DNA of 64,000 nucleotides from Bacteroidia bacterium (GTDB lineage Bacteria; Bacteroidota; Bacteroidia; SpSt-205), in contig JANXCX010000006.1 in assembly GCA_025059535.1 (NCBI GenBank), positions 74,913 through 138,912 on the forward strand, in the 5' to 3' direction. Under the pieces are notes generated by a model. The model was given only the letters and a program-made list of their open reading frames with translations, was not told where the DNA came from and searched no databases. This document shows, one piece after another, positions 21,955 to 43,645 of the stretch (the stretch's first letter is position 1; every line of letters starts with the position of its first letter). Made by a program: the position numbers and the translations under genes.

Positions 21955-22974
21955 TCAGAAGGGCGGGAAAGGATACACCGTACCCCGCTCGCGGTAGCTA
22001 TAGCCTAATTGGTACTGGAGCATCACTTGGATACCGCCAAAAGCGGTAGGCGTTATGGTGCGCTGGGTAAGGAGCCCATAGGCTAGGCCTACGGTTAGGC
22101 CTTTGTGGAGGCTGAAGCCCGCTACCAGCGCATATTGATCGCGTGCGCGCAGAACCGCTCCCGCCAGTATGGAACCCAGCGGACGCGTAAACCAGTAGCC
22201 GCCTTCATAGAGCACAAATTCGGCCAGCAGAGAACCACCCAGCCATTCGCTTTGATTGGCGCGCGCGTAGAGTAGGCTTGCGGCGATTTGGAAAGGGGTC
22301 CGGGTAAAAAGGCGAGCTCCCCCCTGCACACACCAGAAAACCGAAAGACGCTCCGAACGGCGAACCAAAAGGCCTACCGCTGGCCGATTTATACGATTGA
22401 CCGAAAAGCCCAGAAAGGGCACCAGCTCCGTATTGCCGGGAATTTTCTGCGTCCGGAAGTATATAGCACCTATACCTATATCCGGGTGCCACTGGCTGAG
22501 GCTACCGAAAGCTTCCTGGGTAGGCTGACCGAATCCTCGTCCGTCGAATTGGTCTTCAAAGTAGAGGTCGGATGGCTCCACGCGCCGATTTACGGTGGCT
22601 ACACTAATTCCGGCACGCAGGTGGTCATATCGCACGCGCGCCCCCAAGGGGGCCTCATACGCCAGGCTAGCCCCTAACTTATAGGTACTCCAGCCAGCAG
22701 CTCGGTCTATCAAGACATACGTGCCTCCGCCTGCTGGCAACTCGCGCAGACGAAAAGGAAAATCTGCGCTAGCCCAGGTGGAACTCAGGTCGGCAAAACC
22801 GGTAGCGGGCCGAAAATGGTGAGTAGCCAAAAACCGAAAGCGTCCTTCCATTACGCCTGTCAGCGCGGGATTGAGGAGTTGGGGCTGCGCCCAGAACCCC
22901 AGTGGGAGCAGCTCCTGCCCCAAACCCTCAGTACACCAGATGCACCACGCCAGTGTACGTAACCAGACCTTCAT
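21955..22974 (-). CDS. PorP/SprF family type IX secretion system membrane protein
   Basis: A 339-residue outer-membrane beta-barrel-like protein. After the signal peptide comes the family N-terminus FWAQPQLLNPALTGVMEGRFRFLATHHFRP, followed by amphipathic beta strands with aromatic ends and a final strand IQVMLQYQLGYSY. PorP/SprF proteins work with the T9SS, and SprF homologues are needed for secretion of a particular SprB-like type B adhesin. Its 5' end overlaps the type B cargo gene just upstream by 47 bp, which fits a cargo-partner pair. Confidence 0.88.
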   Translation of the reverse strand: MKVWLRTLAWCIWCTEGLGQELLPLGFWAQPQLLNPALTGVMEGRFRFLATHHFRPATGFADLSSTWASADFPFRLRELPAGGGTYVLIDRAAGWSTYKLGASLAYEAPLGARVRYDHLRAGISVATVNRRVEPSDLYFEDQFDGRGFGQPTQEAFGSLSQWHPDIGIGAIYFRTQKIPGNTELVPFLGFSVNRINRPAVGLLVRRSERLSVFWCVQGGARLFTRTPFQIAASLLYARANQSEWLGGSLLAEFVLYEGGYWFTRPLGSILAGAVLRARDQYALVAGFSLHKGLTVGLAYGLLTQRTITPTAFGGIQVMLQYQLGYSYRERGTVYPFPPF

Positions 22975-25642
22975 ACGGCATTAAAATCACGGCACGATAG
23001 GAGTAGGTGCCTGGCTCTAGCGGCGTGCCATCTTTACCTTGACCTCGCCACTCCGAAAGGTTCTCACCTTCAAAAACCGCCTGCCCCCACCGGTCAAAAA
23101 TCTCCAGCCGACGGAACACAAAGCCCTCTTCCAACGGTAGAGGGCGGAATACGTCATTCTTACCATCTCCATTGGGCGAGAAGGCATTCGGCAGATAGAC
23201 CTGACGCGGTAGCACTTTGATGCAGTCTGTACAAATGTAAAAGTCTGAGCAGCCTACCTCGTTTTGCACAAAAAGGGCTATGGAATAGGTACCAGGGTTA
23301 CGATACTGGTAGGTAGGGGTAGCGGTACCACCTACAGGCTCACGCCCGGCCTCACCGAAGTTCCACACATAGCTCACCGCACCTTGCCCCGTATAAGCCA
23401 GCCGAATCTCAGGCTTATTCATCGTAAGCACGCAGGGAAACTGCGTACAAGGCTCGGTGATAGTAAAGGTAGCCGTGGGTGCCGCTAAAACTTCTACAGG
23501 CAATTGACTAAAGCTTTCGCACCCTTCCTTACGGGCATAGAGCGTAAAGGTATCGCGACCAACTGGCTGCTGGCCAGGATTGTAGGTAGGCCCGCTTTGG
23601 CGAAAGTAGGGGTTCGTAGGCGCTAATGGACCAGCCGCTTCCACCTGCGCAAGGCTACCTTCAAACCACCACAGCGTATCAATGCCTTCAGCTGGGACCG
23701 CCTGAAGCTGAAGGGCTACATTTTCGCAGGCCCTATTCGGTCCTACAATAGCCGGCGAAATGCCTGTAAGCACGAAGACCGAATCGGTATAAACCTGTCG
23801 GCCGCAATTTCCCACTACATTCCATCTAAAGCGTACCCAGCGGCCAGCATCCCCTGAAGTAGAGACGTAGTAGGTGCGCTGCTGATTAGGATCCGGGCTG
23901 AAAAAGCCCTGCCCATCGGTAGTCCAGTAGCCGCGTGTACCTACTGTGATGGTCCCCTGCAAGGGAACGCGACCACCCGGGCAGATTTGTGGCAGGCCTA
24001 CCTCTACCCGCCCTGCCGCATCACTGGCTTGAATGCCCAAAGTAAGGCAGAGGGTATCTTTTTCCCGCTCTCGGCAGGCCGAAAGATCCTCTTCGCGCAC
24101 TACCCAGCATATCTCTACATTCGGTGGATCGGCGGGGTCACTCACGTACGCGGAATTAGGCGCAGAGGGATCTATGAAGAAGCCGCGTCCATTGCGCGTA
24201 ATCCAGCGGCCACGCCCCTCGGCAGAAAGGTAAGACGTATCCCCCGCACAGATAGGGCTAGTAAGTCCGCGAAAATCCCGGCGCAGAAATTCACCCGAAA
24301 TCCTTACCTCCTCTGGCTCGCTATAAACCGTACAGCCGCCATAATGCACCCGAGCCCGAAGAGTTACTGAGCCGGGCTCTCTAAAAACTAGCACACATAT
24401 CGGCAGAGTAGCCCCTGTAACCTCATCCCCTAAATCCACCCAATTATTTCCTTGAAGGATTTGCCATCGCAGGCTATCAGGTGTAGCGGGCAGGTCCCTC
24501 AGGATAAAACTGACACTTTGGCCTATGCAAGCATTCCTTGGGATGGCTTGGGCCCGCCCTCCACTCGGGCAAGGGATTATGCGTATGGATTTTTGCGTCT
24601 GACCCCTACACGGGTTGCCCGGCACCTCATAAGTGGCCGTCAGCCACTCCGTGCGCGGCACAGGCCGATTGGAAGAAGGAGTGATCAAAATAGAATTGCC
24701 CGCATAGAAATTTCCCTCAAAAACCCAGCTCACATTACTGCCTGACGGCGTAAGGATATAGCTGTAACTACCTTGGGCATATATGGTATCCCGCCCAGCT
24801 ATGTAGTGCGGTCCCGAGGGTGCTATTACCTCACCCCCAAGGGCACCGTAAAGCTCCATACACCTACACTTTCTATAGCCACCCAGCACCTGAAGGGAAT
24901 AAATCCCTGGATGGTCAAACCTCACTTCCACAAGCGGACTCGGAGGAGAGTTGCAAAAAGTAGCTGCCCCGCCAAAACTGTACACAACCCGTGCGCAAAG
25001 GGTATCTAATAAACCTCCAATAACTTGGGTAACCTGTAGCGTACAGCGAGTGCCTTGGCAAATATTAGGCTGGCAGTCAAAATTATATTCAATTCCATTT
25101 GGTGGGGGCGGACATAAGGAAGCGAGGGTATCATGGCGCCAGGTTAGGCGGGGCTTCATGTCTTGCAGCGCTGAGTTCAGGACAGCGGCCGGCCCTGGCT
25201 CCCAAAGTAAGAGGCTGCGACGCTCAGACCCACAGGCTAAAAGAGGTACGCGAAAACCAATTAGGGTATCGCGCGCTTCAAGTATATCGCCCGGGGGTTG
25301 GAAGTTTGGCCGGCGTCGGATGGTAACATTTACGCGCGCGTGAGCGACCGCATAGGTAATAGGATCATAGTAGGAATCATCGTGAAACTTACGCACATGA
25401 ATCACGCGCGCTGCGGTGAAGTTGAGTACATCAGGATTGTAGAGGAAAGGGAAGTTAGAGCTGGCCAGTTCGTCTGGCACTATGCCATTCTCCGTGCGCT
25501 CAATTATAAGGTATATATCCAGAGAGTCAGGGGCAGCTGTATTGGGGTAAGCCTGATACTGCTGGAGGAAGCTAACCTGGTAGCGGGGCTCCTGCGCCAG
25601 AAGGAGTCCGAATAGAATGGGCCAAAAACGCCTAGGGCACAT
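22928..25642 (-). CDS. Large secreted adhesin-like protein with T9SS type B (CHU_C) sorting domain
   Basis: A 904-residue exported protein: short signal peptide (MCPRRFWPILFGLLLAQ), then many Cys-containing beta-sandwich modules with Ig/PKD-like character, including a PKD-type module near 735-810 (AVSYVWNFGEAG, YRNPGTYSIALFVQN). The C-terminal about 90 residues are a gliding-motility-type type B signal: VYLPNAFSPNGDGKNDVF, IFDRWGQAVFEG, PLEPGTYSYRAVI. It is expected to be secreted by T9SS and displayed at or released from the cell surface. ATG 25642 is chosen over TTG 25648. It overlaps the genes on both sides. Confidence 0.88.
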   Translation of the reverse strand: MCPRRFWPILFGLLLAQEPRYQVSFLQQYQAYPNTAAPDSLDIYLIIERTENGIVPDELASSNFPFLYNPDVLNFTAARVIHVRKFHDDSYYDPITYAVAHARVNVTIRRRPNFQPPGDILEARDTLIGFRVPLLACGSERRSLLLWEPGPAAVLNSALQDMKPRLTWRHDTLASLCPPPPNGIEYNFDCQPNICQGTRCTLQVTQVIGGLLDTLCARVVYSFGGAATFCNSPPSPLVEVRFDHPGIYSLQVLGGYRKCRCMELYGALGGEVIAPSGPHYIAGRDTIYAQGSYSYILTPSGSNVSWVFEGNFYAGNSILITPSSNRPVPRTEWLTATYEVPGNPCRGQTQKSIRIIPCPSGGRAQAIPRNACIGQSVSFILRDLPATPDSLRWQILQGNNWVDLGDEVTGATLPICVLVFREPGSVTLRARVHYGGCTVYSEPEEVRISGEFLRRDFRGLTSPICAGDTSYLSAEGRGRWITRNGRGFFIDPSAPNSAYVSDPADPPNVEICWVVREEDLSACREREKDTLCLTLGIQASDAAGRVEVGLPQICPGGRVPLQGTITVGTRGYWTTDGQGFFSPDPNQQRTYYVSTSGDAGRWVRFRWNVVGNCGRQVYTDSVFVLTGISPAIVGPNRACENVALQLQAVPAEGIDTLWWFEGSLAQVEAAGPLAPTNPYFRQSGPTYNPGQQPVGRDTFTLYARKEGCESFSQLPVEVLAAPTATFTITEPCTQFPCVLTMNKPEIRLAYTGQGAVSYVWNFGEAGREPVGGTATPTYQYRNPGTYSIALFVQNEVGCSDFYICTDCIKVLPRQVYLPNAFSPNGDGKNDVFRPLPLEEGFVFRRLEIFDRWGQAVFEGENLSEWRGQGKDGTPLEPGTYSYRAVILMPYEGLVTYTGVVHLVY

Positions 25643-26633
25643 ACGCAATTAGGGTAGAAGTAACTCCAGCGGAGCTACGAAGGTAGGCTGTATATAGGCC
25701 CGCCGGCAGGAGAGGAAGGCGCAGGGCGTAGGGGTACTGAGCCTGAGCCTCCCAGGTAGTTCGCCAAACCTCGCGGCCGCTGGCTTCACACAGCACCAGC
25801 TCTACAGGGCCCGTGGAGGGCGCTTCCACCCAGAGGATACCATTAGTAGGCTGGGGGTAGAGGCGCCATCCGCCCCGCTTTTGGCTTGATAGGGAGGCCG
25901 AACGCCACAGGAGTGTATCGGAGTGGGCTATGCGGCCGCAGCGATGCCGCACTACGGCATAATACCCTCCCTCGCCTATCAGGGGACAATAAGGCCCTTC
26001 CGCCACGCGGCGATCCTCCCAATACCAATGTATTTCTAAGTTCTCTGGGCGGAAGTAAGCCAGCTCGGGCGAGTCTAGGGTAATATGATCGTCGTGGACC
26101 CTGATACGCAAAGGCGCATGAAAAGAAGGACACAGCGGCAGCGGCGGAATAGCGGCAAATACGAAGCGGTGACGGGCTCGGCCCAGCCCCGCTAGGACAA
26201 TCTCACCGGTTTCCATTCCCCAAGCGAGGCGCAGGGTATCCTGGAAGCGCCGTATGGGCAGGTGATAGATGCCTACGCTCTCCCACTGCCCTGAGAAAGG
26301 CAGGCCCGTGTTAGCCGACTTAGCTAGGAGGTTGAGGCTTAGACGGAAAGCCCCCGGCCCATCTAAGCGATGGGTAAAGTACAGGGGGAAGTAGAGAGGA
26401 GAGATAGCCCCGTCGCGCGGCCCGCGCTGCACCAGCTGCGGCTCGGTCCAGCCTACAGCCTCTTCTGGGGTGCCAGTAAGCACGAAGTTGGCGCCTACGG
26501 GCACCTGGCCTGGCGTGCCCCGCCATTCCACCGCAAGTTCCACATAGTCTCCCCAAAGCCGAGGCAAGACCCGTACGGTGTCCTGAGCCCACCCAAGAAG
26601 CAGCCCCAAAAAGCTCCAAAAACCCCTATTCAT
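25632..26633 (-). CDS. Secreted protein with T9SS type A sorting domain
   Basis: A 333-residue exported protein of unknown function: signal peptide MNRGFWSFLGLLLGWAQ, a beta-rich middle part (EIHWYWEDRRVAEGPYCPLIG resembles an Ig-like module at about 200-235), and a C-terminal type A sorting domain (YPQPTNGILWVEAP, VELVLCEASGREVWR, LPAGLYTAYLRS). The type A domain would direct T9SS secretion and attachment to lipopolysaccharide. It overlaps the dockerin-like gene upstream by 8 bp and the type B gene downstream by 11 bp. Confidence 0.82.
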   Translation of the reverse strand: MNRGFWSFLGLLLGWAQDTVRVLPRLWGDYVELAVEWRGTPGQVPVGANFVLTGTPEEAVGWTEPQLVQRGPRDGAISPLYFPLYFTHRLDGPGAFRLSLNLLAKSANTGLPFSGQWESVGIYHLPIRRFQDTLRLAWGMETGEIVLAGLGRARHRFVFAAIPPLPLCPSFHAPLRIRVHDDHITLDSPELAYFRPENLEIHWYWEDRRVAEGPYCPLIGEGGYYAVVRHRCGRIAHSDTLLWRSASLSSQKRGGWRLYPQPTNGILWVEAPSTGPVELVLCEASGREVWRTTWEAQAQYPYALRLPLLPAGLYTAYLRSSAGVTSTLIAYVP

Positions 26634-33552: not shown

Positions 33553-36447
33553 ATGAAGAAGGTTGGGCTCAGTGTGCTGGCACTAGGGGTGCTCAGCGGT
33601 CTATTAGAGCGGTCAAAGGCCCGCTTAGCTGAGCACCTCTTGGGCTATTGGGTAGGCACACGCGTGGAAGTAGCGGAAGCGGCTATTTGCCATGTGGATT
33701 GGCAGGGGAATTGGCGGGTGCGTCTGAAAGGCGTGCGCCTCCAAAGTACCCTGCCTAAGGACACCACCTGGGCCGCCTGGAGTGAAGAGGTGCGTATTGA
33801 AGGCCGAGGGCGGCGTCCCCACACCATCCGACTGCGTAAGGCCGTGATCCACCTCCTGCGCCTCAGCCGCACGGCTAAGAACTACCACTTTTTTCCCAAA
33901 CGCGGAAAAGGCGCCCACGCCCATACACTCACTCTCCTGAGCGACTCCTTAGCCTTTGCTTTTTGGAACCTCCCCAGCCAAGCCGAGATTCAAGCCTACT
34001 TCACAAAAGCAGAGGCTACTTTGACTATATACCCCACCAGTATAGCGCTCAATTCGCTCAAGGCTAATATAGCAAAAAGCGAAATTTGCTTCAAGGATTA
34101 CCTTCTCTGCCTACCTAATAGGTTAGAACTTCTGGCAAAAGGGCTCTATAGGAAAGCCGAGGATAGCTGGGATACCCTCCATCTCACGCTCCAAAGCTCT
34201 GGGAGCTGGCTTGCCTTCTTTGGCTGCTGGGAGAGATGGACTTATCCATTTGGCCGATTTGCGGCGGCCTTAGACCCTCGCCTTCTTGAAGGTCAAGCCA
34301 GCTTCCTGAAGTATGTAACCTCCAATCCTCTCTCTCTCGCTGGGCAGTGGCAGGGTAAGCGTTATGTCCTGTACAGCCGAGGGAATTGGACCGAAGGGAC
34401 CTACCACTTTCAAGTACGAGGCCACTTAGAGGGTAAGCCCTACCTGCGGGGCGCTATCTCTTGGGGTCCTTGGCTGCGGGGACGCCTTTGGGGTACGCCC
34501 GCACGGCTTTACCTTAGCGGGTCCCTACGCTACCCCCCCTTACAGGGCGCGCTCCATAGTATCCTGTACCCTGCACAGGCCCGAGGCCAGCTATTTTTAG
34601 CCGATCCTGCCCTTAGTCTGGAAGCCGAAGGCAGCCTTACCCACGCCACCCTAAAGGGTCTCTGGGAAGGTATCGCCTTCACGGGCCGCCTAACCTCAGC
34701 CAAAGGCCTTGAGCTTACCCTACCCGCTCTGGCTTGGGACACCTTGCAACCCAAACTGGCCGCCTACCAATCCCTTTTTAGCCTGCGTCAGACAAAGTGG
34801 AGCCTCCCCTTTTCCCTTTTTCTGACGCGCTTGGAGTTTCCTTTCATGGGCACCTTGGAGTCGCTTTGCCTACGGTTCAGCGGGGGCCGAGGTGAGGCTG
34901 AAGCCAACCTCTGCGCCACCGAAACCCTCGTGACAGGCAAGCTACGCGCCATTTTTACCCTTAGGCCTCTGCAGGGCTCGGCCAGCCTCTTAGGGGAGCA
35001 CCTGCAAGCGGCGCTATGCTGGCACAGCGACACCCTGCGTCTAACTGCTAAAGGCGTCTGGCGTGAGATAAGCGGCCTCCTCATCGGCCGGGCTACCCTC
35101 TCCGAAAAATACCTCTACTTAGACTCCCTTTGCCTCACGGCACCAGACAGCAGCCTCCTTACGGCCCAAGGTAAGCTTAGCCTGACCCAAGCCGATCTAA
35201 ACCTCCAAGCCGAAGTAGCCCTTCCTTGGGTACTCGGCCACCTTCCTATCCCCGGCGTGAAAGTAGAAAAAGGTCGCCTAGCGATGAATTTCTGCGCGTT
35301 GGGCGCTTGGGCTGACCTGCTGCGCCTTTCCAACCCTACCGAAGGCTCGGCCCACCTATGGGATGCAGGCGGCCTTTTTCCCGGGCTAGGCCTACCCTTT
35401 GATCACCTTAGCGCCTACCTAACCTATACGCCGGATTCCACCTACCTCCATCGGCTTACGGGGCAAGTAGGGAGTCTGCGCCTTACCAGCACTGCTAAAA
35501 TCAACGGCGCCCTAGCCTACCTCTACACAAACTGGCACCAGCTGCAAGGAAAGCTTTACTTGGAGGGGGATACCTTTCGCCTAACGGAATTTTGGCGGCG
35601 CGTGGAGAATGGCCGCACGCGGCGTCAGGTACGCCTACCCACCCAAATGGCCGTGGAGGTGCAGGCTCAGCTGCGCCACGCCGATATTTTCGGGCTTACT
35701 TTAGATACGATCCACCTGCATGGCCGACTGGATAACCTCTGGGCCGTCATAGATAGCGTGCGCCTGCATTACCACGGGGGTAGCACCTGGGGGCAGGGAT
35801 GGGCTGACCTCCAAGATAGCACCTGCTACCTCCTCACCGCCCGTATAGAGGGGCGCGACCTACCTATTCACCACCTGTTAGAGGAAACGGGGTTAGGCCG
35901 CCTTAGAGCCGTGAAGCGATTGGGCCTGTACCACAGCGACTTCTCCGGCACCCTGCAGCTTAGCCTACGCTTCACGCCAGAGGTCTCCTGGCACAAGCAA
36001 AGTTCCCTTTGGGGTCGCGGCACCATAGAAAATGGTAGCCTACGCACCCCTCGCTTCCTGCGCTGGCTACGCCCCTATTACCTGCGCGCCTACAAGGATA
36101 CCCTGCGATTTTTAGCCGAAGTGCCAAAGCTAAACTACACCGACGGCTTTCTCCACCTGCACGACCTACTCCTAATCACCCCCATAGGGGCCCTACAGGT
36201 AGAAGGGTACCATCACTTGCCCAGAGACCGCTTCCTTTATCGTATTCAAGGGGTTCGCTTTCCCCGAGAAATCCAGCGCCATCCCCTTACCCTATACCAC
36301 TTTCGCCATTACCTTATGGATTTCTTAGACCATAGCCTCCTGCTCCTCTACCTAGAGCGAACCTCCGAGCAAACCCGCTGGCATTATCCACTCAAGTATG
36401 TTTTACGTCAGCTTATCTGGCCTAAAAAATCCGTTCGGACGCAATAG
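33553..36447 (+). CDS. AsmA/TamB-like envelope protein
   Basis: A 964-residue protein with an N-terminal membrane anchor (KVGLSVLALGVLSGLLE) and a long chain of beta strands of alternating polarity, as in AsmA-like proteins that bridge the periplasm and move lipids. N-terminal region: YWVGTRVEVAEAAICHVDWQGNWRVRLKGVRLQ, typical of AsmA/DUF748-type N-termini. The C-terminal part (from about 600) has LSLTQADLNLQAEV, VKVEKGRLAMNFCALGAW and TPIGALQVEGYHHLPRDRFLYRIQGV, matching the AsmA-2-like C-terminal region. Role in outer-membrane lipid homeostasis is inferred from the fold. Confidence 0.78.
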   Translation: MKKVGLSVLALGVLSGLLERSKARLAEHLLGYWVGTRVEVAEAAICHVDWQGNWRVRLKGVRLQSTLPKDTTWAAWSEEVRIEGRGRRPHTIRLRKAVIHLLRLSRTAKNYHFFPKRGKGAHAHTLTLLSDSLAFAFWNLPSQAEIQAYFTKAEATLTIYPTSIALNSLKANIAKSEICFKDYLLCLPNRLELLAKGLYRKAEDSWDTLHLTLQSSGSWLAFFGCWERWTYPFGRFAAALDPRLLEGQASFLKYVTSNPLSLAGQWQGKRYVLYSRGNWTEGTYHFQVRGHLEGKPYLRGAISWGPWLRGRLWGTPARLYLSGSLRYPPLQGALHSILYPAQARGQLFLADPALSLEAEGSLTHATLKGLWEGIAFTGRLTSAKGLELTLPALAWDTLQPKLAAYQSLFSLRQTKWSLPFSLFLTRLEFPFMGTLESLCLRFSGGRGEAEANLCATETLVTGKLRAIFTLRPLQGSASLLGEHLQAALCWHSDTLRLTAKGVWREISGLLIGRATLSEKYLYLDSLCLTAPDSSLLTAQGKLSLTQADLNLQAEVALPWVLGHLPIPGVKVEKGRLAMNFCALGAWADLLRLSNPTEGSAHLWDAGGLFPGLGLPFDHLSAYLTYTPDSTYLHRLTGQVGSLRLTSTAKINGALAYLYTNWHQLQGKLYLEGDTFRLTEFWRRVENGRTRRQVRLPTQMAVEVQAQLRHADIFGLTLDTIHLHGRLDNLWAVIDSVRLHYHGGSTWGQGWADLQDSTCYLLTARIEGRDLPIHHLLEETGLGRLRAVKRLGLYHSDFSGTLQLSLRFTPEVSWHKQSSLWGRGTIENGSLRTPRFLRWLRPYYLRAYKDTLRFLAEVPKLNYTDGFLHLHDLLLITPIGALQVEGYHHLPRDRFLYRIQGVRFPREIQRHPLTLYHFRHYLMDFLDHSLLLLYLERTSEQTRWHYPLKYVLRQLIWPKKSVRTQ

Positions 36448-36485: not shown

Positions 36486-39400
36486 ATGAAGGCCTTTCGG
36501 TGGGCCCTTTTAGGGAGTGGGCTTTTCGTATGGGCCCAAGAATGTGAAGTTATATTCGTTGCGCCGAATGGAAGCGCTACGCCAGGCAGTGGCACGCGCG
36601 CCAACCCAGCCGAACTCAACTACGCCATAGCCCACTTGCTTACACCTACCATACGCCGAATTTATTTAGCCTATGGTATCTATGTGCTGAATCGTACCCT
36701 CCCTTTGCACAACAACCTCCAAATAGAAGGGGGCTTTGACCCCGCGCGCGGCTGGCTCAAAACTAACCTCTATCCCACTATCCTCCTGCGCACGGCGCAA
36801 AATCCTACGCCTAACCCTAATCGTCTCGTTGGCATAGAGGGCATAAACGCAAGCGGCTTTCGGATTCAGGACATAGAGGTGTATGTAGAGGATGCCACGA
36901 ATCTGGGTCATAGTACCACGACTTATGCCCTTTACCTCAATGGCTGCAGCAACTACGTAGTCAATCGCTGCCGGTTTATCGCTGGGGCTGGTGGAAACGG
37001 CGAGCGCGGGGCAGATGGGGCTAATGGACGGAATGGCGCCGCGGGGGCTAATGGCGGCGAAGGTGAGGAAAATGGTGGCTGCTGCCGAGCTGGGGGTGCA
37101 GGCGGCAACGGTTGGTCGGGCGGCCTCGTCCGAGGGGGAAGAGGGGGGGACGGGGGTCAGCAGGGCACAGCCGGCTTCTTTTGCGCTAGCCCCAGAGGCT
37201 ACAATGGGGCCCCCGGCGAGAAAGGCGCGCCTAATACGGCCCAGGCCTACGCGCCCGAAGGAGGCATAGGAGGAGCACAGGGAGTAGGCCACAGTGCAGC
37301 CATTAGTACCTGTGGCAACCGTCCCGCCTCTATGGACGGTCAAGATGGCCAAGATGGCCGAAATGGCGCAAATGGGACTAACGGAGGCCCAGGCACACCG
37401 GCGCACATCGGCGGGTTCTTTCAACCCGGCCATGGGGCAGATGGCACCGATGGCCAGCACGGATCAGGCGGTGGGGGTGGCGGCGGAGGAGGGAGTTTAG
37501 CCGCCTTCTTCGGTGGAAGCCTCTGCCGACAGTCTACGGGTGCTGGGGGCGGCGGCGGCGGGGAAGGCGGCGAAGGGGGTAAAGGCGGCAAAGGCGGAGG
37601 AGGAGGCGGCGGCTCCTTCGGCATCTACCTCTGGCAAAATGGCGCCGATGGCCGCTTTATTGACGTCATCGCCCAGTCCAGCACACCCGGTACAGGAGCT
37701 GTAGGCGGACAAGGGGGCGCCGGCGGCTTAGGGGGAGCGGGTGGCTGCGGGGGCGGCCGAGGATGTGGCGGCGGCTCACTCGCCTGCTTCCGCGGCGCAG
37801 GCGGCGATGGCGGCCGCGGTGGCAACGGCGGCAACGGCGGCAACGGCGGCAACGGCGCCAATGGCCTAGCCGCAGACTTCTACATCCACCCCGGCAGCAT
37901 AAACCCTACCATCAGTACCTTCCGTCAGCCCGACGAACCCGTCATCTACGCCGAATACACAGGCTGCACGGACCGCCAAGTGCGCGTCTGGACCGAAGCC
38001 ACGGGCAGCCTCGTATGGTTCTTCGGCCCAGGCAGCACGCCACCCACGGCCAATGGCGATACGGTGCGAACCCGCTACACCACCCTCGGCCGTAAAAATC
38101 TCACCCTCGTAGCTAATGGCCAAACCTTTGTGTATTACGACTTTCTAGATCTGCGCGACGACGGCACGGGGGGCAATCCTACTTTTACCCTTCCCCGCGA
38201 TACCTTCTGCTTAGGTATGTCTCTTACGCTACAAAGTAGCCTAGCGGGTCAAGCAAGCTACGCCTGGGATTTCGGTGGGGGCGCCCCCCCTATCAGCGGA
38301 CCCGCCCACCAGACCGTAAATATCTCACTAAATACGCCTGGTACTTTCCCTATCACCCACCGCACCTACACGCCCTGCTGCGGCTGGTCGGATGCCTATC
38401 GGGACACGATTGTCGTCCTACCGATCCCTGGACCCCGTATAACCATCCGCACCGCTACAGGCAGCTTAGAAACCTGCGCGGATAGCCCCGTACTTTTTGT
38501 GGCCGATTTAGAAAACTTCGGTCCTAATCCTTCCATCACTTGGCAGGTGAATGGCGTGCCGCAAGGGAGCGGCCGCACTTTCCTCTGGAGCACACCCCAA
38601 AATGGGGCTACAATTCAGGCTATAGCTATAGGGAATGTGGCGTGTGCGCGCGGCGTACCCATACCCTCTAATACGCTGAGTCTTACCGTTCATCCGCGGC
38701 CACAGATTCAGGCTGGTCCAAATGGCTGCTTCACTATTGCAGGCAACCTCGTACCGGGTGAGCTTATTACGCTGAGTGCTACGGCAGTGGGGGGCCAGCC
38801 ACCTTACACCTTTTACTGGGATTTAGGGGATGGGCGTGGCGCCGTGGGCAATCCCGCTACCGTCCTTTTCCCCACTGCGGGTACCTTCCGCATAAGGCTC
38901 ACCGTAGTAGATGCGAATGGCTGCAGTAGTAGCAATACAGACCAGTGCGAGGCTACCGTGGAGATAGCCTATCAGCCCATAGCGGACTTTACCGCTGACC
39001 CGGCCCAGGGCTGCCCGCCGCTCCAGGTCCGCTTTACCAACCAGAGCGCGCACGCCAGCGCCTATGTATGGGACTTCGGCGATGGCTCTCCCCGAAGCAC
39101 TGACCCTAACCCCACCCACCTTTATCAGGCTTCGGGCGAATACACGGTCTCACTCTATGCCATAGCCGCCAATGGTACCGACACCGCCCGCTTCCAAAGC
39201 CGCGTAGTAGTGTACCCCAAGCCCGTAGCAGACTTTTCGGTATTTCCTCCTGTCCTGTATCAGCCGGATACAGCTTACTTTGTCTCTCAGGCCCAGGGGG
39301 CTACACGCTGGGAATGGCACTTTGGCGATCCACTCAATCCCACCGCTACCTCTAACCTGCCCAATCCCTCTTACTTCTATGCCCGCCCTGGCGAATATAC

Positions 39401-39722
39401 CGTTCGTCTCATCGTGGAGAATGCCTATGGCTGTCGTGATACTTTAGTGAAGTCGCGTGCGGTTATCAAGTTGGCTGAATCGCCCGCGGCTTTAGCGGAA
39501 TTTCCACGCGAGGCTTTAGCGGTATGGCCTAATCCTTTCAGTGAAATCCTTTTCGTGCGCCTTCCTAAAGAAGCCCCTCTGAGCCTGTACGATAGCCGAG
39601 GTGTCCTTCTCTGGGAAGCCCGATTAGGGGCAGGCCAACATCCACTTCACCTCGGCGACTTAGCCTCAGGGCTTTACTTCCTACGGGTAGGCCCTTGGAC
39701 CTTGCGTCTGCACAAAGTATAA
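36486..39722 (+). CDS. Giant glycine-rich PKD surface protein with T9SS type A sorting domain
   Basis: A 1078-residue exported protein. Order: signal peptide (about 1-18), a right-handed beta-helix-like region (about 20-165) with IEGGFDPARGW and ALYLNGCSNYVVNRCRFIAG, a 290-residue glycine-rich domain (about 168-460) of Gly-X-X triplets and poly-Gly (GADGANGRNGAAG, GGNGGNGGNGANG) punctuated by Cys, then PKD modules (about 738-818, 830-910, 910-996; WDFGDGSP, GEYTVSLYAI), and a C-terminal type A sorting signal (VWPNPFSEILFVRL, LASGLYFLRVG). Probably surface-displayed. Start set at ATG 36486 because of the promoter spacing and the signal peptide. Confidence 0.88.
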   Translation: MKAFRWALLGSGLFVWAQECEVIFVAPNGSATPGSGTRANPAELNYAIAHLLTPTIRRIYLAYGIYVLNRTLPLHNNLQIEGGFDPARGWLKTNLYPTILLRTAQNPTPNPNRLVGIEGINASGFRIQDIEVYVEDATNLGHSTTTYALYLNGCSNYVVNRCRFIAGAGGNGERGADGANGRNGAAGANGGEGEENGGCCRAGGAGGNGWSGGLVRGGRGGDGGQQGTAGFFCASPRGYNGAPGEKGAPNTAQAYAPEGGIGGAQGVGHSAAISTCGNRPASMDGQDGQDGRNGANGTNGGPGTPAHIGGFFQPGHGADGTDGQHGSGGGGGGGGGSLAAFFGGSLCRQSTGAGGGGGGEGGEGGKGGKGGGGGGGSFGIYLWQNGADGRFIDVIAQSSTPGTGAVGGQGGAGGLGGAGGCGGGRGCGGGSLACFRGAGGDGGRGGNGGNGGNGGNGANGLAADFYIHPGSINPTISTFRQPDEPVIYAEYTGCTDRQVRVWTEATGSLVWFFGPGSTPPTANGDTVRTRYTTLGRKNLTLVANGQTFVYYDFLDLRDDGTGGNPTFTLPRDTFCLGMSLTLQSSLAGQASYAWDFGGGAPPISGPAHQTVNISLNTPGTFPITHRTYTPCCGWSDAYRDTIVVLPIPGPRITIRTATGSLETCADSPVLFVADLENFGPNPSITWQVNGVPQGSGRTFLWSTPQNGATIQAIAIGNVACARGVPIPSNTLSLTVHPRPQIQAGPNGCFTIAGNLVPGELITLSATAVGGQPPYTFYWDLGDGRGAVGNPATVLFPTAGTFRIRLTVVDANGCSSSNTDQCEATVEIAYQPIADFTADPAQGCPPLQVRFTNQSAHASAYVWDFGDGSPRSTDPNPTHLYQASGEYTVSLYAIAANGTDTARFQSRVVVYPKPVADFSVFPPVLYQPDTAYFVSQAQGATRWEWHFGDPLNPTATSNLPNPSYFYARPGEYTVRLIVENAYGCRDTLVKSRAVIKLAESPAALAEFPREALAVWPNPFSEILFVRLPKEAPLSLYDSRGVLLWEARLGAGQHPLHLGDLASGLYFLRVGPWTLRLHKV
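37821..37856 (+). repeat. Tandem 9-bp repeat in the glycine-rich domain
   Basis: Four exact copies of GGCAACGGC followed by a diverged fifth copy (37857-37865), encoding GNG-type repeats in frame. Confidence 0.85.
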
Positions 39723-39733
39723 TATAATTAGCT

Positions 39734-42700
39734 ATGCGCCTACGCTATCTGTCGCTCGGAGCCCTTAGTCTGCTAGGCTATGCCCAAGAGGTGCGCTGCG
39801 ATTATGCGAATATCCGTGCGGGGGATGTGAATGGGCTTCGAGCAGCCATAGCCAATGCCGCTGCTGGCGGACCGCGCCTTATCCGGCTGGAGATAGGCGA
39901 ATACCTCCTCACCGCGCCCCTCTCGCTGGAAAATAATGTGATTATAGAAGGCGGCTTTGACTTTAGCGATCCAAACAATCCCGTAAAGCGCAGTGGTGGC
40001 ATCTCGCGCCTCAAGCGCCTAAGCGGCACCCCCGAGGCTAACCCCTGCCGGCTAGTAGCGATACAGGCTATAAATAAATCCGGCTTTGAGCTCCATGACC
40101 TTTACATAGAGGTGGAGAATGCCCGCTACAACGAGGATGGGCCCGGCTGCTCCACCTATGGCTTGTACCTAAATGGCTGCGCGAATTACCAAATTGTGCG
40201 CTGCCGCATCCATGCAGGCAGTGCTACGGATGGACGGCCTGGGGATCCCGTACGGAATGGACGCGATGGAGCGGATGGCGCAAAAGGGGAAGATGGCTGC
40301 CGCCGCTGCGACCCTATAAACGACGACCCCAACAATGAGGGCGGCGCAGGAGGAAGCAGTTGGTCTGGCGGGGCCCAGGCAGGCGGCAGGGGCGGAAATG
40401 GCGGCCCCATAGGCAGCGGACGTAGCGGGTGTTTCTTTCCAGATGTAGATCAGTTCTGTCAGCCGCCCGCAGGAGCACAGCCCGGCCAAAGCGGCCAAAA
40501 TGGTAATACGGCGGTAGGCGGTCAAGCCCCAGCCCTGGGCGGACGCGGCGGACGCCAACTAAACGTATGCCGACAGTTAGATGCGGCTTTTGACTTTATC
40601 TCCTTTCTCAGCGGCTGTCCGGCAGGAGGGTTCGCTTATGGCGGCGAGGATGGGGAAAATGGCCGCAATGGGCGAGATGGCGCCGATGGAAGCCCAGGGA
40701 TTTACTCCTTCTCGCCGGCGGGATGGTTTCTGCCTGGCGATGGGCAGGACGGTCAGCCAGGCGAACACGGCGGCGGCGGCGGGGGGGGTGGCGGCGGCGG
40801 CGCCCTGGGGGGCATTCCCGAACGGCTCTGTTTCATCAATATCGGCCGTGCTAATAGCTCAGGGGGTGGGGGCGGCGGAGGTGGGGAAGGCGGCGAAGGC
40901 GGACCCGGCGGAAAAGGCGGTGGCGGCGGCGGCGGCGCCTTCGCCGTCTTCCTCTGGAATAATGGGCCGAATGCCTTTCTGCGAGACTGCCCTCTTACCG
41001 TGGGGCAGCCAGGGCGGGGGGCTCCTGGGTCCTCAGGGGGCCAAGGCGGACGCGGCGGCAAAGGCGGCTGCGGCGGAGGCTTCTCGGGCGACCCTTGCCA
41101 GCGCTTCTGTGGGCCTACCCCGCCCCAGAACGAGTGCGCTGCTGGCTGTGAAGGCGGCTACGGCGGACGCGGCGGCGACGGCGGTAATGGCGGCAATGGT
41201 GGACGCGGCGGAAACGGCGCCAACGGCCTCGCCCAAACCCTATACCAAAACCTCGCCGGCCAGCCCATCACCGTCACCAATAGCTTCGTCCCTACCGAAC
41301 CGCCTATTGAGCTTCAAAACCCCATTTGTACCCATTCCGCCATAACCTTTAGAGTAGAAAATGCAGACCCTCTTACGCGCTATGAGTGGGGCTTTGGAGC
41401 AAATGCTACGCCTACCTTCGCCAGGGGTCCCACCGCTACTGCCTTCTTCACTACGGCAGAATTCCATACGATTCTCCTGCGCGTGAATGATGTACCCTAC
41501 CGCTACACCCTCTTTGCCTCGCCGCTCCAGCCTGGCGTCGTGCCAGATATTCAACCGGTAGGCAACCTTCCCGTTTGCGAGGGGGCCTCAGCTACTTTCC
41601 AGGCTAACCTCACCAATCCTGCTAATCGCGTAATTCAGAACTACGAATGGCGTCTCACGGGGCCAGGGGGATTTTCACACACCCAAAGCGGTCCTGCGGC
41701 AAATGCCTACACAACCCCTCCCCTTACCGTCCTTGGCAGTTATAAGGTCTATCTGCGCGTGCGCTCGGAATGCTGCGGCCTTTCCATCTGGGACTCACTG
41801 GAATTTGAAGTGGTACCCTTGCGCCTTATGACGGCTCAGCTTATCGCCACCCCCCCTGAAGTATGCGAAGGCCAGCCTGTTACCCTGACCGTTGTAGGGG
41901 GTAATTTAGGGCCTACGCCTACCTACACCTGGTATCGCCGGCGGGGCGGTGCGCGTGCGGTCATACCTGGAGCCACAGCCTCTACTTACACAGACCCTGC
42001 CCCCCAAAACGGCGACCAGTACGAAGTTGAGGTAACCTCCAGTTTAGCCTGCATAAGCAATAGCCCGCTCACTACTAATACCGCCACCGTTACGGTGCAC
42101 CCGCGGCCCCAGCTTAGCTGTCCTTCGCCGCTTAGGGCCTACTTGGGGCTCCCTGTGAGCTTTACGATTAATGCCTCTAATGCTGGTCAGCTTCAGCCCC
42201 CTTTTAGCTACCAGATTGATTTAGGGAATGGCTTTACGGTCAGCGGTCAGAGCAATACTTTTCCTATCAGGGCTTCGGCTAATTATGGGGGCGCTGGTAC
42301 CTATCGGGCACTTATCACCGTTACGGATGCGCGCGGCTGCCAAAGTAGCTGCGAGGTGGAGGTTCAGCTCGTAGCCGAGCCACCCCCGCAGGTAGATTTC
42401 TCTGGCGCGCCGCAAGAGGGGTGCGAAGAGCTCACCACGACCTTTACCGTTACGCCAGCGGCAGACGAGTATCGCTGGAACTTTGGCGATGGCAGTCCGC
42501 CCCAAACTACCCTCCAAAATCCCATCCAGCATACCTACAATCAGCCCGGCTTCTACACGGTAAGGTTAGAGGCGCGATTCGGGGGCACGTGGATCGCGGT
42601 AGAAAAGGTGCATTATATTCGGATTTACCATCGGCCTAATCCGCAGATTGCGGTTATTAGCCCGCCTTGTGCCAATCAGCCCATTCAATTTTCCGATGTT

Positions 42701-43645
42701 GGTACGGATGGATACAGTTGGGAGTGGGATTTTGGTGATGGGGGGCGTAGCACAGCTGCTGGCCCGCAGCATACGTATGCCGCTTCGGGCACTTATACGG
42801 TTACGCTTACGGCGTGGAGCCACAATAGAGTATGCTCGGCTACAACCCAGCGGCAAATAACCGTGCAGCGACGGCCTACCGCCAGCCTGAATGTGGATCC
42901 TACCTCGGGGTGCGCGCCTTTTACGGTACGACCTAGCAACACCTCAGATCCCGCCGGCGCGGCAGGGGTAATCTACATCTGGGTATGGGGTGATGGTAGC
43001 CGGGATACGCTGCGCACTTCGGATAGTCCTACGCATACCTACTCCACTCCAGGCACTTACACATTGCAGCTGATAGCGCTGAGTCAAGACGGCTGTAGCG
43101 ATACGGCGCGCGTCCCACTGCGCGTACTCCCTACGCCCCAGGCGGGCTTTTCCCCAACCAACGTACAGCGTCGCATCCCCGACACGCAAGTAGAATTCAC
43201 TAATCAATCCCAAGGCGCCGTGCGGTACGAATGGGACTTCGGCAATGGCCAAACTTCCACCGCTGTCAACCCTGCTCCCGTGAATTTCCCGCGCGAAGGC
43301 ACCTACAATGTTACCCTAATCGCCTACTCGGCTGAGGGCTGCGCCGACACCGCACGCGGGGTGGTGGTAATTGAGCCAGGGCTGGAAATCTTCATCCCAA
43401 ATGTCTTCACTCCAAACGGCGATGGCATAAATGATCTCTGGCTTATACGCGCCACCGTACCTTATGAGGTATGGGTGTATGACCGCTGGGGCCTTCAGGT
43501 CTTTTATGGAAATAATACGCAGTTATGGGATGGGAGATGTGGGGGCGCGCCATGCCCAGAGGGGGTCTATACCTACCGCCTGCTGGCGCGCGTAGGAGGT
43601 ACTCATGAATTCACGCGGGCCGGCACCGTAACGCTCCTGCGCTAG
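39734..43645 (+). CDS. Giant glycine-rich PKD surface protein with T9SS type B (CHU_C) sorting domain
   Basis: A 1303-residue exported paralogue of the preceding protein. Order: signal peptide (MRLRYLSLGALSLLGYAQE), a beta-helix-like region with IEGGFDFSDPNNP and GLYLNGCANYQIVRCRIHAG, a glycine-rich domain (about 160-505) with collagen-like triplets and poly-Gly, then Ig/PKD modules (WNFGDGSPPQT, WEWDFGDGGRS, WVWGDGSRDT, WDFGNGQTST), and a type B signal at the end (IFIPNVFTPNGDGINDLW, VYDRWGLQVFYGN, CPEGVYTYRLLARVG). It starts 11 nt after its paralogue. It carries more PKD modules than the first copy and a different sorting domain. Confidence 0.9.
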   Translation: MRLRYLSLGALSLLGYAQEVRCDYANIRAGDVNGLRAAIANAAAGGPRLIRLEIGEYLLTAPLSLENNVIIEGGFDFSDPNNPVKRSGGISRLKRLSGTPEANPCRLVAIQAINKSGFELHDLYIEVENARYNEDGPGCSTYGLYLNGCANYQIVRCRIHAGSATDGRPGDPVRNGRDGADGAKGEDGCRRCDPINDDPNNEGGAGGSSWSGGAQAGGRGGNGGPIGSGRSGCFFPDVDQFCQPPAGAQPGQSGQNGNTAVGGQAPALGGRGGRQLNVCRQLDAAFDFISFLSGCPAGGFAYGGEDGENGRNGRDGADGSPGIYSFSPAGWFLPGDGQDGQPGEHGGGGGGGGGGGALGGIPERLCFINIGRANSSGGGGGGGGEGGEGGPGGKGGGGGGGAFAVFLWNNGPNAFLRDCPLTVGQPGRGAPGSSGGQGGRGGKGGCGGGFSGDPCQRFCGPTPPQNECAAGCEGGYGGRGGDGGNGGNGGRGGNGANGLAQTLYQNLAGQPITVTNSFVPTEPPIELQNPICTHSAITFRVENADPLTRYEWGFGANATPTFARGPTATAFFTTAEFHTILLRVNDVPYRYTLFASPLQPGVVPDIQPVGNLPVCEGASATFQANLTNPANRVIQNYEWRLTGPGGFSHTQSGPAANAYTTPPLTVLGSYKVYLRVRSECCGLSIWDSLEFEVVPLRLMTAQLIATPPEVCEGQPVTLTVVGGNLGPTPTYTWYRRRGGARAVIPGATASTYTDPAPQNGDQYEVEVTSSLACISNSPLTTNTATVTVHPRPQLSCPSPLRAYLGLPVSFTINASNAGQLQPPFSYQIDLGNGFTVSGQSNTFPIRASANYGGAGTYRALITVTDARGCQSSCEVEVQLVAEPPPQVDFSGAPQEGCEELTTTFTVTPAADEYRWNFGDGSPPQTTLQNPIQHTYNQPGFYTVRLEARFGGTWIAVEKVHYIRIYHRPNPQIAVISPPCANQPIQFSDVGTDGYSWEWDFGDGGRSTAAGPQHTYAASGTYTVTLTAWSHNRVCSATTQRQITVQRRPTASLNVDPTSGCAPFTVRPSNTSDPAGAAGVIYIWVWGDGSRDTLRTSDSPTHTYSTPGTYTLQLIALSQDGCSDTARVPLRVLPTPQAGFSPTNVQRRIPDTQVEFTNQSQGAVRYEWDFGNGQTSTAVNPAPVNFPREGTYNVTLIAYSAEGCADTARGVVVIEPGLEIFIPNVFTPNGDGINDLWLIRATVPYEVWVYDRWGLQVFYGNNTQLWDGRCGGAPCPEGVYTYRLLARVGGTHEFTRAGTVTLLR

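Follow-up and report, generated by a model that had tools for sequence, protein, structure and literature searches.

A tandem pair of T9SS substrates with related glycine-rich heads and type A then type B sorting tails recurs in at least ten families of Bacteroidia

Experimental tail swaps in Flavobacterium johnsoniae established that the T9SS sorting tail alone sets the destination of a protein, the type A tail giving a static or released protein via PorV, and the type B tail needing PorP/SprF shuttles to give a protein that is sometimes mobile with gliding and sometimes static (PMC12618676). The type B tail of SprB carries other cargo along the gliding track in the same organism, and type B genes are often linked to a PorP/SprF gene (PMC12618676). 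PorP-like barrels bind type B proteins, of which those studied are probably uncleaved, and PG1035 is without A-LPS modification (PMC9143113, PMC10202324). That the T9SS retains sorting tails of two kinds raises the question of why, on which a natural pair of neighbouring genes with related heads and different tails bears; the head contains a large glycine-rich domain. Phage gp38 adhesins, a possible structural parallel for this domain, carry polyglycine-II sandwich domains. The PGRS domains of mycobacteria have been modelled by AlphaFold2 (AF2) as a polyglycine-II fold (PMC9436101).

The pair lies in a 64,000-nucleotide stretch of DNA (the window) from a 1.9-Mb Bacteroidia genome in 25 contigs, 98% complete, and consists of two adjacent ORFs (genes 1 and 2, Table 1). 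Both show the same module order, i.e. a signal-peptide-like start, judged by eye, a region marked by IEGGFD and LYLNGC motifs, a glycine-rich domain (~295 residues in gene 1, ~337 in gene 2), PKD modules (Pfam PKD_4, 1e-40 and 4e-62, respectively) and a sorting tail. The 157 non-glycine residues of the head are 41% identical between the two proteins, and BLAST with low-complexity masking aligns the heads at 44% over 112 aa (E 6e-19) and the parts following the glycine-rich domain at 30% over 579 aa (E 5e-45). Glycine composition as the sole source of the similarity is ruled out by the masked BLAST. On these alignments gene 1 and gene 2 are full-length paralogues, homologous also across the glycine-rich and PKD parts. 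The earlier note, made from the sequence of the window, had called them tandem paralogues of shared module order and proposed alignment of their N-terminal regions; ORFs, profiles and masked alignments agree with it. The scan for promoters and terminators returned no more sites than shuffled sequence. Directly upstream of the pair (33553-36447, + strand) is a gene for a 964-aa protein that has no Pfam match and is possibly AsmA-like, and three related genomes (G005, G007 and G008) have genes alike in size and start ahead of the pair as well.

Table 1. Layout of the tandem pair, in window positions
Feature	Position	Strand	Basis
Gene 1 (1078 aa), pair-A member, type A substrate of the T9SS	36486..39722	+	ORF and tail profile matches
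Gene 1 signal-peptide-like N-terminus, residues 1-18	36486..36539	+	judged by eye
Gene 1 beta-helix head ahead of glycine-rich part, residues 19-166	36540..36983	+	AF2 strands; PDB beta-helix matches
Gene 1 glycine-rich domain, residues 167-461, period-3 glycines, proposed polyglycine-II between beta-helix strands	36984..37868	+	alignment, glycine autocorrelation, AF2
Gene 1 PKD/Ig-like stalk	37869..39500	+	profile matches
Gene 1 type A sorting domain core, residues 1013-1068	39522..39689	+	profile matches
Intergenic gap, 11 bp stop to start	39723..39733		no + strand terminator-like site called inside
Gene 2 (1303 aa), pair-B member, type B substrate of the T9SS	39734..43645	+	ORF and tail profile matches
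Gene 2 beta-helix head ahead of glycine-rich part, residues 18-161	39785..40216	+	head alignment; AF2
Gene 2 glycine-rich domain, residues 162-498	40217..41227	+	AF2 layout
Gene 2 PKD/Ig-like stalk, longer than that of gene 1	41228..43390	+	profile matches
Gene 2 type B (CHU_C) sorting domain core, residues 1220-1286	43391..43591	+	profile matches

The tail of gene 2 is of type B above cut-off, matching PF13585 at 51.8 bits and TIGR04131 at 42.1 bits, in a range of 42-47, against a cut-off of 35. Scanned as a whole protein gene 1 falls slightly below the type A cut-offs (TIGR04183 22.8 against 23, PF18962 20.3 against 27), and its last 100 residues scanned alone exceed the first of these (25.5 against 23); its orthologues all match type A. 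The reading of the first gene as type A and the second as type B, also made in the earlier note, is thus borne out by the profiles. The genome encodes the corresponding machinery, with profile matches to SprA (2221 bits), PorU (927 bits) and the PorV family (355 bits), and at E<=0.001 the Pfam tail models find 11 tails of type B and 19 of type A genome-wide, 12 of the 19 over cut-off, alongside three PorP/SprF genes.

The head is not confined to this genome. A head profile search found it in 72 of 395 sampled Bacteroidia genomes and in 33 of 197 genera, and we fetched 40 head-bearing loci, picked by head adjacency or score and never by tail, and typed their tails. Where two successive members of the head family share a strand and both tails can be read, the order is A-B in 19 cases, A-A in five and never B-A or B-B, the A-B pairs being drawn from ten families. 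All 19 adjacent pairs that end in a B gene consist of an A gene of ~1,090 aa and, immediately after it, a B gene of ~1,250 aa. Every scanned pair-A tail (19/19) matches TIGR04183 at E<=0.01 and every scanned pair-B tail (18/18) matches TIGR04131. In most pairs the A and B genes touch or overlap while the flanking genes vary between lineages, and it is therefore the pair itself that is the stable unit; no common PorP/SprF gene was recognised among the flanking genes, read by eye. Given the constant A-then-B order and the constant tail type of each member, the pair looks, on this comparison of loci, like an old and conserved cassette, a functioning pair instead of something that arose lately and by chance in the source genome. 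Family f15 (G068, G104, G025) is an exception, in which B comes ahead of A and small genes separate the two; strict adjacency is thus not needed. As far as sizes tell, the five A-A neighbours are a third type A paralogue followed by pair-A. This paralogue of ~1,165 aa is often found ahead of the pair, or sits elsewhere, and in several families its place in front makes the pair a trio (L156, L157, L162, L167, and L148, where the frame is broken by masked bases); judging by such loci, the unit may be a trio instead of a pair. A literature search via annotation terms found no work on the pair.

We infer that the two genes are co-expressed and that their products take two exit routes, co-operate through their heads and serve adhesion. 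Both proteins would be exported by Sec and then by the T9SS, each as a right-handed beta-helix head, a polyglycine-II-like bundle of glycine loops and a PKD stalk. The gene 1 product would exit via PorV, lose its tail to PorU and end LPS-bound or released, and the gene 2 product would keep its tail and stay on a PorP/SprF barrel, with the B protein most likely as the anchor bound to the outer membrane, while the A protein would serve as a coat, a matrix or a partner that is released. That the cassette is an old one whose like heads co-operate at the surface on two outer-membrane anchors, in an adhesive or protective layer, is a reading to which we give an even chance. The heads could instead belong to independent adhesins with unrelated jobs at two destinations, which are neighbours only through ancient tandem duplication, as might be thought from the many solitary members of the head family (in family f1, 11 of the 12 genomes carry 2-7 copies each) and from divergence of the paired heads to 41% identity. 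We consider this unlikely, though the best of the alternatives: tandem order and tail types have been held in ten families while the flanks change, where unrelated neighbours ought to have dispersed like the remaining copies. Surface co-operation is favoured over it because the pair is kept together and the heads are matched.

The two tails might also make a fixed and a mobile partner, the gene 2 product being moved by the gliding machinery so that the same head is both static and moving. The behaviour of the SprB tail and the static or released fate of type A proteins in F. johnsoniae (PMC12618676) are in keeping with this, as are the PorP/SprF genes of the genome and a match to GldB. However, both gliding models searched against the genome stay below cut-off (GldB 126.6 against 190 bits, GldJ 133.5 against 458.2 bits), and the GldJ matches, which adjoin two strong PorP genes, are probably PorK/GldK. 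Furthermore there are three PorP/SprF genes (on contigs C1 and C9, and at 21955-22974 in the window) for the 11 type B tails, none of the three lies next to the pair, and static type B proteins exist (PMC12618676). A mobile gene 2 product is possible, but the reading as a fixed and a mobile partner is on balance improbable. In the same window a type B (CHU_C) gene (22928-25648, - strand) lies directly beside the PorP/SprF gene, together spanning 21955-25648, which is the usual cognate arrangement and unlike that of the pair.

The glycine-rich domain shows a conserved register. Across 49 aligned heads the autocorrelation of glycine has its maxima at 3, 6 and 9 residues, and ~80 positions of the domain hold glycine in at least 90% of the proteins. 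AF2 given the 49-head alignment models the gene 1 head (536 residues) at mean pLDDT 93.7, the glycine-rich blocks, which have neither helix nor strand, lying mostly at 94-98 and being preceded, separated and followed by beta strands; the gene 2 head has the same layout at mean pLDDT 89.9. Period-3 glycines and the AF2 secondary structure together suggest a modelled head in which glycine-rich stretches connect the turns of a beta-helix and pack against one another as polyglycine II. The glycine-rich part is, on these models, probably a conserved folded domain and not low-complexity filler. Silk-like disorder is disfavoured by the conserved glycine register and AF2, and the 'fibre' of the earlier note, if meant in the silk sense, becomes unlikely.

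Searches of structure and family libraries give the head few relatives. Pfam has no family for the glycine-rich domain and assigns the head no enzyme family, a PDB profile search gave four weak matches only, to unrelated or linker-containing chains, and a viral fold library gave only partial beta-helix matches. The head domain is absent from the libraries searched, and is widespread and conserved in Bacteroidia. The best PDB fold matches are to beta-helix polysaccharide lyases, which would fit a polysaccharide-active pair whose beta-helix binds or cuts glycan, with the PKD and glycine-rich parts as spacers. These matches cover only ~180 columns, at a query TM of ~0.2 and 13-18% identity, and with no Pfam enzyme family to accompany them such an activity is quite improbable.

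Tail type is likewise ordered within family f1. A tree of 47 heads resolves orthologue groups with fixed sorting type: type A is constant among gene 1 orthologues and in a third group (~1,160 aa), and type B among gene 2 orthologues and in a fourth group. Two other groups mix A and B. One of these two includes a further copy in the source genome (L037 1633-7005, G000:C16), whose residues 1-600 resemble a type A relative (51-82%) and whose remainder, from ~600 onwards, resembles type B relatives (mostly 48-81%). By this pattern of identity the copy is a mosaic, a sorting-tail switch that apparently arose from a recombination event close to where the glycine-rich domain begins, and tail switching is, on the same comparison, real in the head family, though not at the gene 1/gene 2 locus. 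Two more observations belong to this family. In G007, a single-contig relative (L044 8475-15651), both pair genes are split by frameshifts, which could be long-read errors or pseudogenes, but the frames beyond the breaks retain their A and B endings. Giant members of ~3,250 residues (L060 5530-15369, L062 3414-13178) combine this head with a tail of type B.

The earlier note had proposed a duplication followed by a swap of the sorting domain, sending the same kind of protein to two destinations. The second part is supported in so far as the paralogues differ in sorting type and the tail sets destination in F. johnsoniae (PMC12618676); a duplication and swap at this locus is not, with the A-then-B pair present in ten families, constant type in each paralogue and neither B-B nor B-A neighbours. 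One fixed sorting type throughout the lineage, the pattern that the note itself had set against its proposal, is what is found for each paralogue taken separately. Local duplication and tail swap in the source genome or genus, for which the paralogy of the genes and the switch in the mosaic copy might speak, is therefore very improbable, the family f1 orthologues being all A for gene 1 and all B for gene 2 and the pair occurring in nine other families.

The age of the pair can be approached from the trees. The pair-A, pair-B and third-paralogue labels cluster far more than shuffled labels. When glycine columns are left out, the pair-A rows lie on one side of a branch (support 61/86), as do those of the third paralogue (59/78), and monophyly of pair-B is not rejected (p 0.19); with glycine columns monophyly is rejected for pair-B (p 2e-6) and for the third paralogue (p 3e-4). 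The type B tail tree (108 columns) is poorly resolved and does not recover a single origin of the pair-B tails. The conflict between glycine and other columns may come from gene conversion or compositional pull, and the trees are compatible with an old trio whose glycine-rich domains were homogenised inside lineages, or with pairs formed repeatedly.

A naturally occurring pair with matched heads and different tails in ten families is the evolutionary counterpart of the F. johnsoniae tail-swap experiments, and makes a clean system in which to ask the purpose of each T9SS exit. Its head is in addition a widespread domain outside Pfam with an apparently folded glycine-rich structure. Surface co-operation of the two products may, more tentatively, be extended to a class-wide two-component system, in which one operon would send sister heads through the two T9SS exits, and a barrel-held and an LPS-held or released partner would build one surface structure; we hold this broader proposal to be possible but somewhat doubtful.

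Compared with known systems, the head shares beta-helix strands with the parallel beta-helix lyases (rhamnogalacturonan lyase, Pel9A), but differs in its low TM, partial cover and want of a catalytic family match. With the polyglycine-II sandwich domains of mycobacterial PGRS proteins and phage gp38 it has in common in-register glycine triplets and a confident AF2 fold without helix or strand (for PGRS, PMC9436101). Here, however, the glycine-rich stretches exit from and re-enter a beta-helix, the head is carried by T9SS proteins, and it has no meaningful sequence relation to a solved structure. Among T9SS type B substrates (TIGR04131/PF13585; SprB, PG1035, Fjoh_3952) gene 2 is conventional in its type B domain following PKD modules, but is without an adjoining PorP/SprF gene, being one of 11 type B tails to three such genes. 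Gene 1 in turn is like the type A substrates (TIGR04183/PF18962; RemA, gingipains) in its tail, in a genome with SprA, PorU and a PorV-family protein, and differs from them in its unannotated beta-helix/glycine-rich head and in its coupling to a type B sister.
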